IMG/VR virus record: IMGVR_UViG_3300049825_000343
Location: 1-33,166 of that record
Origin: a virus
Length of the DNA stretch: 33,166 nt
Strand: one strand, 5' to 3'
Positions 11,891 to 16,285 of this stretch are shown here, piece by piece (within the stretch, counting starts at the first letter, position 1; every line of letters starts with the position of its first letter). Below the pieces are notes generated by a model, which ran no database searches, was not told the origin of the DNA, and worked only from the letters and a program-made list of their open reading frames with translations. The position numbers and the translations under genes were made by a program.

Positions 11891-12294
11891 CCATCAAGGG
11901 TCTGGCGAGCCTCAATCGCAAATTTGAGCGACTGCCCAAGTCGGCAGAAGACGCCGCGCGCAAGGCGATAGCCATCAGTGCCGACGAGATCGTCGCCATG
12001 GCCAAGCGCCTGGTGCCGGTTGACGAGGGCGATCTCCGCGCGTCCATCGGTTGGACATGGGGCGAGGCGCCTGAGGGCACCAAGGTTCTCGGCTCGGCGC
12101 GCGGCGGCGCGGCGCTCACCGCCACCATTTTCGCCGGCGACCACAAAGCCTTCTATGCCCGCTGGATCGAATTTGGCACCGTCAAAATGTCGGCCCATCC
12201 CTACTTCTTTCCGAGCTACCGGGCCAACGCCAAACGCGCCAAGTCGCGGATCAAGCGGGCCATCAATAAAGCCGCGAAAGCCAACGCGGCATGA
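11887..12294 (+). CDS. HK97 gp10-like tail completion protein
   Basis: A 135-residue protein of the HK97 gp10 type, which helps attach or terminate the tail. It shows an N-terminal helix (LNRKFERLPKSAEDAARKA), the conserved AKRLVPVDEGDLRASIG near residue 40, then YARWIEFGTVKMSAHPYF near 95, with a basic C-terminus. It starts in the ATGA overlap with the head-closure gene, and its stop overlaps the next start at 12291-12294. Confidence 0.9.
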   Translation: MTIKGLASLNRKFERLPKSAEDAARKAIAISADEIVAMAKRLVPVDEGDLRASIGWTWGEAPEGTKVLGSARGGAALTATIFAGDHKAFYARWIEFGTVKMSAHPYFFPSYRANAKRAKSRIKRAINKAAKANAA

Positions 12295-12707
12295 GCGAAC
12301 CATCCCTTGCCATTCAAGCCGCTATCGTGGCGGCGCTCAAGAACGCCGCGGCGGTCACGGCAATCGCCGACGAGCGTGTCTATGACAAGGTGCCGGCGGG
12401 CGCGCAGTTTCCCTATGTGCATTATGGCGAAGACCAGGTGCAGGCCGACGACTACGATTCGGACGACTGCCTGAGCAAGGGCTTCGAGGTCTTCGTGACG
12501 CTGCACGTATGGAGCCGGGCCAATGGCAAGGTGGAATGCAAGCGTCTCGGCGCGGCGGTCCACCAGGCCATCGACAACGCCGATCTGACCGTCAATGGCT
12601 TCACGGTGTTCGCGTTCGAACACCAGAGCACCAATTATCTCACCGATCCCGATGGACTGACCACGCATGGGGTCTGCCAGTTCCGGGTGCTTCTCGACCC
12701 CGCTTAA
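12291..12707 (+). CDS. Tail completion/terminator protein (DUF3168)
   Basis: A 138-residue protein matching the DUF3168 type (HK97 gp11-like / lambda gpU-like), which caps the head-proximal end of the tail tube. The arrangement PSLAIQAAIVAALKNAAAVT, then VYDKVPAGAQFPYVHYG, then FEVFVTLHVWSR and the ending HGVCQFRVLLDPA is characteristic. It is coupled to the gp10-like gene by an ATGA overlap and precedes the tail tube gene by 24 bases. Confidence 0.9.
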   Translation: MSEPSLAIQAAIVAALKNAAAVTAIADERVYDKVPAGAQFPYVHYGEDQVQADDYDSDDCLSKGFEVFVTLHVWSRANGKVECKRLGAAVHQAIDNADLTVNGFTVFAFEHQSTNYLTDPDGLTTHGVCQFRVLLDPA

Positions 12708-12731: not shown

Positions 12732-13172
12732 ATGGCACAAGCCACCGCGATTGCCTTTTCTAAATTCCGCATCCTTCTCGGCGACGGCGCCACGCCGGTC
12801 GAGACATTCGACCGGCCGTGCGGCCTCAATTCGCGCTCGCTTGATCGCACGAAGGCCACCAATGAAATTGACATTCCCGACTGCGACGACGAGGATGCGC
12901 CCGCCTGGGTGGGCCGCGAGGTGAAGTCGCTGGACTGGACGGTGTCGGGCGAGGGCATCATGGCCGAGGAATCAGTGGAAGCCTGGGAGGATTTTTTCAA
13001 CTCGACGGCATCCAAGCATGTCCGCATCGAACGGGTGTTTCCGGGCGGCGTCGGCACAATCACGCAAAATGGCTCGGCCCACCTGACCAAGTTCACCATC
13101 TCCGGCGAACGCGGCGACAAGGTGAAGGTTTCCATCGAACTGTCAGGTGACGGCGAGCTGGTGACCGCCTGA
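12732..13172 (+). CDS. Major tail tube protein
   Basis: A 146-residue protein resembling TP901-1-like major tail proteins, which stack as hexameric rings to form the tail tube. Features are a beta-rich body (FRILLGDGATPVETFDRPCG), the central DWTVSGEGIMAEESVEAWED segment and the ending TKFTISGERGDKVKVSIELS. AGGAG precedes the ATG by 7 bases. The stop shares a base with the next start (TGATG at 13170-13174). Confidence 0.88.
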   Translation: MAQATAIAFSKFRILLGDGATPVETFDRPCGLNSRSLDRTKATNEIDIPDCDDEDAPAWVGREVKSLDWTVSGEGIMAEESVEAWEDFFNSTASKHVRIERVFPGGVGTITQNGSAHLTKFTISGERGDKVKVSIELSGDGELVTA

Positions 13173-13579
13173 TGAGCCGTGACGCGGCGGTCGCCTTCGA
13201 TTGGGCGGACGGCGAGCACAGGTTCCGCCTTGGCATCAAGGAATTGCGCGAGCTTCAGGAAAAATGCGATGCCGGTCCCGCCTTCATCCTGGGCCGGCTG
13301 GTCGACGGATCCTGGCGGGTGGACGACATCCTGCAGACCATCCGTCTCGGCCTGATCGGCGGCGGCCTGACGCCGGTGACGGCGCTGCCCCTGGTCAAGC
13401 TCTATGTCGAGCAGCGCCCGCTGTTCGAAAGCATTCCGGCAGCCCAGGCCATCCTGAGTGCTGCCCTTGTCGGCGCCCCGGATGAACCGCTGGGAAAAGC
13501 GCCGGCGGCGACGGATCAGCCGACAGCCTCCCCAGAGGAAAGCTCCGCTTCGCCGCCATCTACGGCTCAGCCCGCCTGA
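13172..13579 (+). CDS. Tail assembly chaperone (GTA-type, first frame)
   Basis: A 135-residue protein resembling gene transfer agent tail chaperones (Phage_TAC_11 type), the functional equivalent of lambda gpG. It binds the tape measure during tail assembly. Family features are AVAFDWADGEHRFRLGIKEL at the start and LQEKCDAGPAFILGRL near residue 30. The last ~25 residues are Pro/Ser/Ala-rich linker. A slippery heptamer at 13492-13498, at codons 107-109, should divert some ribosomes into the -1 frame and make a longer protein. Confidence 0.88.
   Translation: MSRDAAVAFDWADGEHRFRLGIKELRELQEKCDAGPAFILGRLVDGSWRVDDILQTIRLGLIGGGLTPVTALPLVKLYVEQRPLFESIPAAQAILSAALVGAPDEPLGKAPAATDQPTASPEESSASPPSTAQPA
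13492..13557 (+). promoter_or_regulatory. Programmed -1 ribosomal frameshift signal
   Basis: G GGA AAA (13492-13498) fits the X XXY YYZ slippery rule in the zero frame. Five bases later GGCGGCGA (13504-13511) pairs perfectly with TCGCCGCC (13550-13557), and CGGA (13512-13515) pairs with TCCG (13544-13547) next to a two-base bulge, giving a long GC-rich stem. The -1 frame has a stop at 13483-13485, just before the site, and is open from there to 13722, so slippage at the heptamer gives a productive fusion. Confidence 0.9.
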
Positions 13580-13722
13580 TCGGCATTCCCGATGCCGACC
13601 GGCTGAGCCTGTGGCAGTTCATGGCCGAAGTCGAGGCCTATGCCGACGCCCACACACCGGAAGATCAGAAGATCGCAACGCTGTCCGACGCCGAGGCCGA
13701 CGCCCTGGCCGAATTGGTCTGA
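13498..13722 (+). CDS. Tail chaperone frameshift extension (gpT-like)
   Basis: About 74 residues in the -1 frame, expressed as the C-terminal part of a 183-residue fusion with the first chaperone frame. The sequence includes FAAIYGSARLIGIPDADRLS then LWQFMAEVEAYADAH, a pattern like short tail chaperones in GTA-like clusters. It has no convincing start of its own: the only in-frame ATG (13621) would give 33 residues with no good ribosome binding site. By analogy with lambda gpGT, the extension would contact the tail tube protein while the first domain binds the tape measure. It ends 28 bases before the tape measure gene. Confidence 0.85.
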   Translation, partial: SAGGDGSADSLPRGKLRFAAIYGSARLIGIPDADRLSLWQFMAEVEAYADAHTPEDQKIATLSDAEADALAELV

Positions 13723-13750: not shown

Positions 13751-16285
13751 ATGCCCACCGACATTGAAAAACTCGTCGTGCAACTGTCTGCGGACGTCAG
13801 GCAGTACAAAAAAGCGCTGGACAGAGCCCAAGCCGATACCAACCGCGCGGCGGCTGGCATCGAGGGCCGGTTCCGCAAGATGAACGCCACAGTCGGCAAG
13901 ACGTTCCAGGGCTTCGGCAAGAACTTCGGCGGCGGGCTGCTGGCCGGCGGCATCGCCGGGCTGGTGAGCGCCCAGACGGTGCGCCAGATCGGCGATGCCA
14001 TCAAGAGCGTGGCGGATCTCGGCGACGAGGCCGAGCGCCTGGGCGTCAAGGCGTCGGACCTGCAGGCCATCGAATTCATCGGTCGGCAGAACGGGGTGGA
14101 AGCCGACAAGCTGACCACCGCCCTGCAGAAGCTCAATCTGGAAGTGGGCGAGGCGCGCTCCAAGGGCAATGACCTCAAGAAGATTTTCGACGCCAACAAT
14201 CTGACATTCAGCAATGACCCGCTGGAGAATTTCCGCCGGGTGGCTGAGCTGATCCGCAATGCCAAAACCGAGCAGGATAAGGCGCTGATCGGCGCTGCGG
14301 CCTTCGGCAAGGCCTATGCCGATTTGATCCCGCTGCTCAACCTCGGCGCCGATGCTATCCGCAAGGGCGAACAGGCGGCGCGCGATACCGGCGCGGTGAT
14401 CAGCGACGAGCTGGTGGCCAAGGCGCAGGAATTCGATGATGCCTGGCAAGCTAAGTGGGATGCCTTTTCTGCCACCGGCAAGGGCGCCATTCTCGCCGTA
14501 GCGAGTGCAATTGAAGAATTTCTTGTCAACCATCCTGGTTTTGCCGAGTTTCTCCGAAAACTTGAGTCCCTGACGCCCGGTGGAGTGATTATCGACGACC
14601 TGAAAAAAGGCCGAAATCCGCTACTTAATTTCGGGGGAACAACGGAGCAGGAACAGCTCCTCGAACTCACCGAGCGCCGCGCCACGTTGGAGCGCGAGAT
14701 CGCCGAATTGACGGCTGCCGGTGCTGACCCGCGCCTCTTCGAGCCGTGGAAGGCCGAGCTGGCTTTCATCCTCAAACAGATCGCCGAATTGCAGGCAAGG
14801 ATCAAAGCGACCCAGATTACTGTTGGCCCCGGCGCCGGCTTGAGTGCAGTTCCGCTGCCGGGTTCGGGCTCGACTCAGGGGCCCACCGGGAATGGCACAA
14901 CCGTAGTTCCGCCCGGGGCCGCTGACAAACTGGAAAGGGCAGCGGGCCACCTTGAGTCGGTGATCGACGAGTTTGCCCGTGACGTCGCGCAGGCTGAGAG
15001 CGGCGGCAATGCTTCCGCCAAAAACCCACTATCCTCGGCAACCGGGATCGGCCAGTTCATCGAATCGACCTGGCTCCGCCTGTTCCGCGAGAACTTCCCC
15101 GACCGCGCCGCCAGTCTATCGCGGGAAGGCATTCTGGCGCTGCGCAACAACGCTCAGGTGTCCTTCGATCTGATCAAGGCTTACGCGCGCGAGAATGCGG
15201 CGGTACTGCAAAAAGCAGGGGTCTCCGTTACCGAAGCAAATCTGCAGCTCGCCCATTTTCTCGGGCCGGGCGGGGCGATCGACGTGCTCAAGGCAGCGCC
15301 CGGAACGCCGGTCAATCAGGTCCTTCCGCAGAACGTTATCGCGGCCAATCAGAGCGTGCTGGGCGGCAACAAAACGGTTGACGACGTGATTGCCTATGCC
15401 GAGGCGAGAACCCGCGCCACGGAAGCCGACAGGGCGGCCAAGGAGGCCCTGGACGGGCTAAGCCAGTCGCACAACGACGACGCCGAGGCGCAGCGCCTGG
15501 AAAACCAGTTGTTCGGCGATCAATCGTTGGCGGCAACCAAGCTTCGCCTCGAGTACCAGTTTTTGACCGAGGCAAAACGGGCGCTGGGCCGCGAGCTGCT
15601 GCCTGACGAGGTGGCCAAGATCAAGGCGCAAGCCGACGCCATGGCTGAGCTTAGCTTCGAAAACCAGCAACTGGCGGAAAAGCAGAAGGAAACGGCGCGC
15701 ACCGCCGAGGAGTTGCAGCGGGCCGAGGCGCAGGCACAACAGACCATTCAGGCTATCGGTGGTGCGCTAAAGGGTGCGCTTCAGGGCTTCATCAACGACC
15801 TGATTCAGGGCAAATCGCTGACCGACGCGCTGCGCGATGCCTTGATCAACTTAGGCCAATCACTGCTCAACATTGCGCTCGACAATCTTTTCTCGGGACT
15901 GTTCTCCGGCGGCGGCGGTGTCCTCGGCGGGATTTTCCATGCCGGGTCGCCATCGGCGGGGGCTACGGGCACGTCGCGCAGGATATCGCCGGCGCTCTAT
16001 CGCGGTGCACCACGCTATCATAGCGGTGGCATCGCTGGTCTCAAACCGGGCGAAATCCCGGCCATTCTGAAACGGGGCGAACCCATCGGTCCCGCCGCCG
16101 TCAATGCCGCGGCGCGGCGGCTCATCGCCCTTGGCGGGTCGAAGCTGACCAACCGCAACGCCGGCGGCAGCTACGCGGTGAGCAACACCTTTATCATTCC
16201 GACTGAGCGAGCCGCTTTGCTCAGCCAGAATCAGATTGCCCGGAAATCAGCCGAGGCGCTGGAGCGAGCACGGAGGACCACGTAG
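13751..16285 (+). CDS. Tail tape measure protein with transglycosylase-like domain
   Basis: An 844-residue protein that sets tail length and is ejected during infection. The N-terminal ~300 residues are helical (VQLSADVRQYKKALDRAQAD) with a Gly-rich hydrophobic segment GGGLLAGGIAGLVSAQTV near 57-75. Residues ~405-545 resemble a soluble lytic transglycosylase domain: AQAESGGNASAKNPLSSATG with candidate catalytic Glu416, then GIGQFIESTW. A long coiled coil follows (~560-670), and the C-terminal ~150 residues are Gly-rich (FSGLFSGGGGVLGGIFHAG). The enzyme domain would open peptidoglycan for DNA entry. The next gene starts directly after the stop. Confidence 0.93.
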   Translation: MPTDIEKLVVQLSADVRQYKKALDRAQADTNRAAAGIEGRFRKMNATVGKTFQGFGKNFGGGLLAGGIAGLVSAQTVRQIGDAIKSVADLGDEAERLGVKASDLQAIEFIGRQNGVEADKLTTALQKLNLEVGEARSKGNDLKKIFDANNLTFSNDPLENFRRVAELIRNAKTEQDKALIGAAAFGKAYADLIPLLNLGADAIRKGEQAARDTGAVISDELVAKAQEFDDAWQAKWDAFSATGKGAILAVASAIEEFLVNHPGFAEFLRKLESLTPGGVIIDDLKKGRNPLLNFGGTTEQEQLLELTERRATLEREIAELTAAGADPRLFEPWKAELAFILKQIAELQARIKATQITVGPGAGLSAVPLPGSGSTQGPTGNGTTVVPPGAADKLERAAGHLESVIDEFARDVAQAESGGNASAKNPLSSATGIGQFIESTWLRLFRENFPDRAASLSREGILALRNNAQVSFDLIKAYARENAAVLQKAGVSVTEANLQLAHFLGPGGAIDVLKAAPGTPVNQVLPQNVIAANQSVLGGNKTVDDVIAYAEARTRATEADRAAKEALDGLSQSHNDDAEAQRLENQLFGDQSLAATKLRLEYQFLTEAKRALGRELLPDEVAKIKAQADAMAELSFENQQLAEKQKETARTAEELQRAEAQAQQTIQAIGGALKGALQGFINDLIQGKSLTDALRDALINLGQSLLNIALDNLFSGLFSGGGGVLGGIFHAGSPSAGATGTSRRISPALYRGAPRYHSGGIAGLKPGEIPAILKRGEPIGPAAVNAAARRLIALGGSKLTNRNAGGSYAVSNTFIIPTERAALLSQNQIARKSAEALERARRTT

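Follow-up and report, generated by a model that had tools for sequence, protein, structure and literature searches.

A probable −1 programmed frameshift in a tail gene of the TAC_11 family, with a slip site that keeps its position while its sequence turns over

In the lambda G/GT system, GGGAAAG is the site of a −1 frameshift (Xu et al. 2004; Atkins et al. 2016, PMC5009743), and frameshifting between G and T has been retained across a wide range of long-tailed phages (PMC5009743). Heptamers of the G_GGA_AAG type are known to be highly prone to shifting in E. coli, and shifting is also known at sites of the C_CCA_AAG and A_AAG types (PMC5009743). In the SEA-PHAGES chaperone annotations, GGGGGAA is the sole 'fivetwo' motif, with the same G:U re-pairing argument that is made below for a related heptamer (PMC10274946, PMC10885494). 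Two genes of the gene transfer agent (GTA) RcGTA, g10 and g10.5, are called tail chaperones 1 and 2; in the same paper a downstream gene of phage 16-3 is noted as possibly g10.5-like, and frameshifting is not mentioned (PMC11409702). While −1 frameshifted tail chaperones are known in phages, the new elements here are a family-wide demonstration, a slip site whose sequence turns over, GGGGGAG as the predominant heptamer, and a second domain truncated in databases.

The locus belongs to a viral record of 33,166 nucleotides (IMG/VR IMGVR_UViG_3300049825_000343), the whole of which is referred to here as the window. This is apparently a genome of the siphophage type, and its relatives are mainly phages and prophages of Alphaproteobacteria. 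The gene order is tail terminator, tail tube protein, recoded ORF and tape measure, and the recoded ORF thus lies between the tube and tape-measure genes, as in the lambda G/GT type. The tail terminator gene (12291-12707) is followed by the gene for the tail tube, or major tail, protein (12732-13172; Pfam PF06199, E 1.2e-18; phrog_13196, major tail protein), whose stop overlaps the ATG of the next gene (TGATG). The tape-measure gene (13751-16285) matches several PHROG tape-measure families, e.g., phrog_10574 (E 1.4e-34). The tail tube and tape-measure genes and all features of the recoded gene described below are on the plus strand. As side observations, the tail tube gene contains TTTTTTC at 12992-12998 followed by 52 open −1 codons, probably by chance, and a weak lytic transglycosylase-like match (PF06737, PF01464; below cut-off) falls at 14957-15127, within the tape-measure protein.

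The gene in question begins with ORF0 (13172-13579), which starts with ATG and encodes a G-like short product of 135 aa from the TAC_11/GTA-gp10 family (PF11836, Phage_TAC_11, E 2.4e-24, 85.7 bits versus a curated cut-off of 27.8; also phrog_8985). Judged from the sequence and its relatives, it is very likely that 13172-13722 constitutes one recoded gene with a −1 programmed frameshift, giving this short product and a fusion product of 183 aa. The AlphaFold model of the first domain consists of a beta-hairpin plus five helices (about 97 pLDDT at residues 11-100) and its ordered part ends near residue 101, only a few residues short of the slip codons. In our judgement this mostly helical model appears unlike a tail-tube fold, and therefore the Pfam name of PF11836, 'tail tube protein', is doubtful. 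Neither domain model had a significant match in searches of solved structures and folds, and a literature search on GTA-gp10/TAC_11 gave nothing relevant.

The slippery heptamer G_GGA_AAA occupies 13492-13498 in the X_XXY_YYZ phase of ORF0; its coordinates and phase had been reported in the first-pass annotation of this DNA and agree with the sequence. Only two in-phase XXXYYYZ heptamers (Y = A/T) were identified in the 7,226 codons of the 24 likely genes of the window, and GGGAAAA at 13492-13498 is the only in-phase heptamer of the GGGAAAR, AAAAAAR or CCCAAAR kinds in those genes; the second of the two is the TTTTTTC of the tail tube gene. The −1 frame is open over 13486-13722, its part read after the slip being 13498-13722, and the previously given end of this frame and length of the predicted fusion, 183 residues, proved correct in the sequence. 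All four parts of a lambda-like signal had been claimed for the locus; the heptamer, the stem and the −1 ORF stand, but the fourth, the TGA at 13483-13485 that bounds the −1 ORF upstream, is correctly placed and not functional. It is a by-product of the Asp-Glu codons GAT-GAA, and an upstream −1 stop is no required part of a frameshift signal. Many relatives carry GGAGGAG 5-6 nt upstream of the slip site, a spacing shorter than the roughly 10 nt of the dnaX Shine-Dalgarno sequence; the window has only GGATGA, and Shine-Dalgarno-type stimulation is not claimed.

The slip site was compared across 106 homologous loci, window included, from phage records, viral contigs and genomes, with loci under 85% identity serving as 52 representatives. 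An in-phase slip-type heptamer equivalent to that of the window was identified near the end of ORF0 in 105 of the 106 loci, mostly in the same alignment column. By locus, these are G_GGG_GAR (64), G_GGA_AAR (20), A_AAA_AAR (10), G_GAA_AAR (10) and C_CCA_AAG (1), and the corresponding counts by representative are 23, 13, 9, 6 and 1. The five kinds were picked after the loci had been inspected, and were then tested on new loci: with the kinds fixed beforehand, an in-phase heptamer was present in the expected place in all of 29 additional distinct loci that had been retrieved through the second domain only, several of them near-copies of one another. From amino acids and codon usage, 4.1 heptamers were expected versus 52 observed, again for kinds picked after inspection. 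No canonical heptamer was found in phase upstream within the 52 representative genes (5,480 sites), and upstream control windows were almost heptamer-free, except for G_GAA_AAR at a conserved QEK motif in about 13 of the 52; as this motif also encodes G_GAA_AAR, that kind alone is weak evidence, the weakest of the five.

When mapped on the tree of the upstream protein, heptamer identity switches about 20 times among the five kinds, the position of the slip site being kept while its sequence turns over. The −1 frame continues through the conserved domain in 104 of the 105 heptamer loci. Altogether, the 106 homologous and 29 independent loci strongly support the original proposal of a −1 frameshift that joins a chaperone-like ORF to a second domain. 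For G_GGG_GAR, the majority kind in the relatives, re-pairing in the A site would need a G:U pair at the middle position; GGGGGAG was not found as a phage slip site in the literature searched. Two individual loci deserve mention. In the one heptamer locus where the −1 frame does not continue, L049 (IMGVR_UViG_3300022226_000028, around position 2327), a run of ten A at the slip site is followed by an immediate −1 stop, which looks like an assembly indel or else transcriptional slippage. In Sinorhizobium phage HMSP1-Susan (L007:1848-1857), a frame-0 TAG directly follows the slip codons GGG-GAG, so that the short form ends at the slip site.

The stem of 8 + 4 bp (13504-13557, with 13504-13511 paired to 13550-13557 and 13512-13515 to 13544-13547), which had been noticed after a 5-nt spacer (13499-13503), is present in the MFE fold of 13499-13575, and its 3' arm sits within the −1-frame codons for RFAA. 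Taken by itself, the stem of the window does not stand out from what its composition would give (z −0.7; −1.7 over a 60-nt stretch), and its significance derives from covariation in the relatives, not from the window fold alone. Across the 52 representatives, the mean folding z has its minimum exactly at the slip site (−1.1 versus about −0.3 elsewhere, Wilcoxon p 3e-4), with a weaker signal in the A_AAA_AAR class. The 5' arm pairs better with the 3' arm of its own locus than with those of other loci (swapped-arm permutation z −7.3, versus |z| < 1.6 for four control arm placements). In a single register, +6 after the heptamer and with the RFAA codons, 59% of cells pair, versus 26-47% when slid, and at least 7 of the 8 pairs form in 20 of the 52 representatives, versus 5.3 after arm swapping. 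In a 15-sequence alignment, 6 of 10 stem pairs have changes on both sides and the covariation score is 0.283, versus 0.152 shuffled and at most 0.135 slid; these values, like the other stem statistics, are inflated by kinship of the sequences, a kinship that the controls share. The stem shows compensatory changes across relatives, and in the comparison of related phages, which the first-pass annotation had suggested as a check, an in-phase heptamer is kept at the slip position and the stem covaries.

The frame entered by the predicted slip is under selection. For the region past the stop of frame 0, the −1 frame has a dN/dS of 0.07-0.10, whereas values exceed 2 when the other frames are read. 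In the overlap region, dN/dS is 0.33 in the −1 frame versus 1.45 in frame 0. The end of the short product can thus change freely, whereas the start of the second domain is constrained. In a 34-row alignment the second, T-like domain has the consensus LPxGKxRFAAIYGxGAAxGxxPxxVxxxSxWxFxAAxxGW. As in lambda G/GT, the −1 frame runs into a conserved coding domain without a start of its own: in the window, no −1-frame ATG, GTG or TTG precedes the conserved core. The domain is matched by phrog_18467 (function unknown) in the window (E 2.6e-6 at 13611-13719) and in 32 of 34 relatives. The profile of this family is limited to the C-terminal part of the T-like domain; gene calls truncated to an internal start appear to have been its source. 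Public annotation of the domain amounts to a 38-aa fragment in locus L001, 54 aa in L002 and nothing in L009; the expectation that gene callers will miss the second frame is thus borne out in L009 but not always, several records annotating a truncated fragment from an internal ATG.

The model of the T-like domain has three helices (pLDDT 80), and searches with this domain gave no significant match among named chaperone families, known T proteins or solved folds. PF09550 (Phage_TAC_6), the family of the second RcGTA protein, has no match in the window and weak matches in 2 of 34 relatives (best E 0.075), and hhalign of the T-like domain with TAC_6 gave a probability of 10% and E 0.003. The resemblance to TAC_6, and with it to the second gene of GTAs, is weak and only suggestive, and homology is not claimed. 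What was earlier termed a chaperone-like domain is indeed a conserved coding domain, but one that matches phrog_18467 only and no chaperone family; we infer the chaperone label from its position, the lambda analogy and the GTA sister gene.

The arrangement in GTAs was surveyed by running PF11836 and PF09550 against the genomes of five hosts plus a sample from one order. RcGTA g10/g10.5 are like the recoded gene in that the first protein belongs to the same Pfam family, PF11836, and the gene order is the same. They differ in that the second gene of GTAs mostly has its own start: in most resolved pairs the start of the TAC_6 gene and the stop of the PF11836 gene share 4 bases, ATGA or GTGA, and no in-phase slip heptamer was detected in the resolved pairs examined. 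The overlapping layout prevails at loci L107, L109, L118 and L119-L146, and a few loci are arranged otherwise (L108/L121 in the +1 frame; L127 and L129 in other frame relations). By this precedent, the second frame of the phages might be a separate gene that starts on its own and is translationally coupled to the first, and several phage records do list a short second CDS that begins at an internal start. We nevertheless regard a separate gene as improbable, since 48 of the 52 phage representatives have no −1-frame ATG, GTG or TTG before the core, the first −1-frame ATG of the window (13621) is inside the domain, selection on the −1 frame is already apparent upstream of such internal starts, and the heptamer and stem would be left unexplained. 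The window, with its heptamer and with no start before the core, is not a split pair of the GTA style.

Still less probable is a change of frame during transcription, by stuttering of the RNA polymerase rather than by the ribosome. Runs of 7-10 A in some relatives (loci L009, L049 and L066) would favor such slippage, but in the window and most relatives the site is no more than GGGAAAA or GGGGGAG, in which the runs are too short for efficient polymerase slippage, and the heptamer phase and downstream stem are features of ribosomal frameshifting.

The one locus without any of the five heptamers is that of Rhizobium phage RHph_X2_26 (L003), where both parts are in one continuous ORF (L003:1498-2070; MW960037.1 12360-12932) annotated as a 190-aa tail tube protein. 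This ORF aligns in two pieces to both parts of several other phages and looks like a natural in-frame fusion; no relatives of the fusion were found in viral contigs. Homologues lacking the heptamer had been named in advance as evidence against frameshifting, yet in this single case the ORF is continuous and therefore supports the model. RHph_X2_26 would make the long form only, and the ratio of short to long form may thus perhaps not be essential everywhere. A lost base could give such a picture of both halves in one frame, but decay, or a sequencing error that shifted the frame within a single gene, is hardly credible as a general explanation of the −1 ORF, as more than 100 loci have the two parts in this −1 relation, under strong purifying selection.

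Under −1 programmed ribosomal frameshifting, most ribosomes would read ORF0 to its stop at 13579 and produce the 135-aa TAC_11 protein. A minority would pause at the stem that starts 5 nt beyond the heptamer, their P and A sites holding tRNA-Gly and tRNA-Lys, respectively, on G_GGA_AAA; a slip back by one base, from GGA-AAA to GGG-AAA, would then let them read the −1 frame as far as 13722. The resulting GT-like fusion would combine the folded TAC_11 domain, a flexible linker and the three-helix T-like domain. By analogy to lambda gpG/gpGT, the abundant short form may bind and coat the tape-measure protein, whereas the long form, made rarely, may recruit tail-tube subunits through its T part; neither form would be present in the virion. 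The occurrence of slippage, its efficiency and the chaperone role are what we infer for this locus.

By this analogy the gene would be functionally a chaperone system of the lambda G/GT type, which it resembles in its place between tube and tape-measure genes, in a −1 shift late in the first ORF, in the heptamer type of the window, and in its predicted short and long products. In contrast to lambda, a covarying stem follows the site and the slip heptamer varies within the family, and neither part of the window gene has detected sequence homology to lambda G or T. With the actinobacteriophage chaperones that use GGGGGAA (PRFect, PMC10885494; PMC10274946), the family shares a non-canonical heptamer of the GGGGGAR type in a tail chaperone gene; however, here it is GGGGGAG that predominates, in mostly alphaproteobacterial phages, and the window itself has the canonical GGGAAAA. 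A plausible account, which we favor with some reservation, is that the position and function of the slip site are fixed while its sequence is free among at least four heptamer types, the commonest being the non-canonical G_GGG_GAG, where tRNA-Glu would re-pair with GGA through a middle G:U; GTAs would use two start/stop-coupled genes instead, and RHph_X2_26 a permanent in-frame fusion.

The interest of the locus lies in this slip-site turnover, the natural fusion and the GTA alternative. For PF11836, now named tail tube protein, it would mean a defined function as the first part of a frameshifted chaperone, and the second half, truncated or omitted in databases (e.g., phage 16-3 p015/p016), is now supplied. 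In addition, the interchangeable slip sites of the family form a natural series in which heptamer function in alphaproteobacteria can be tested.
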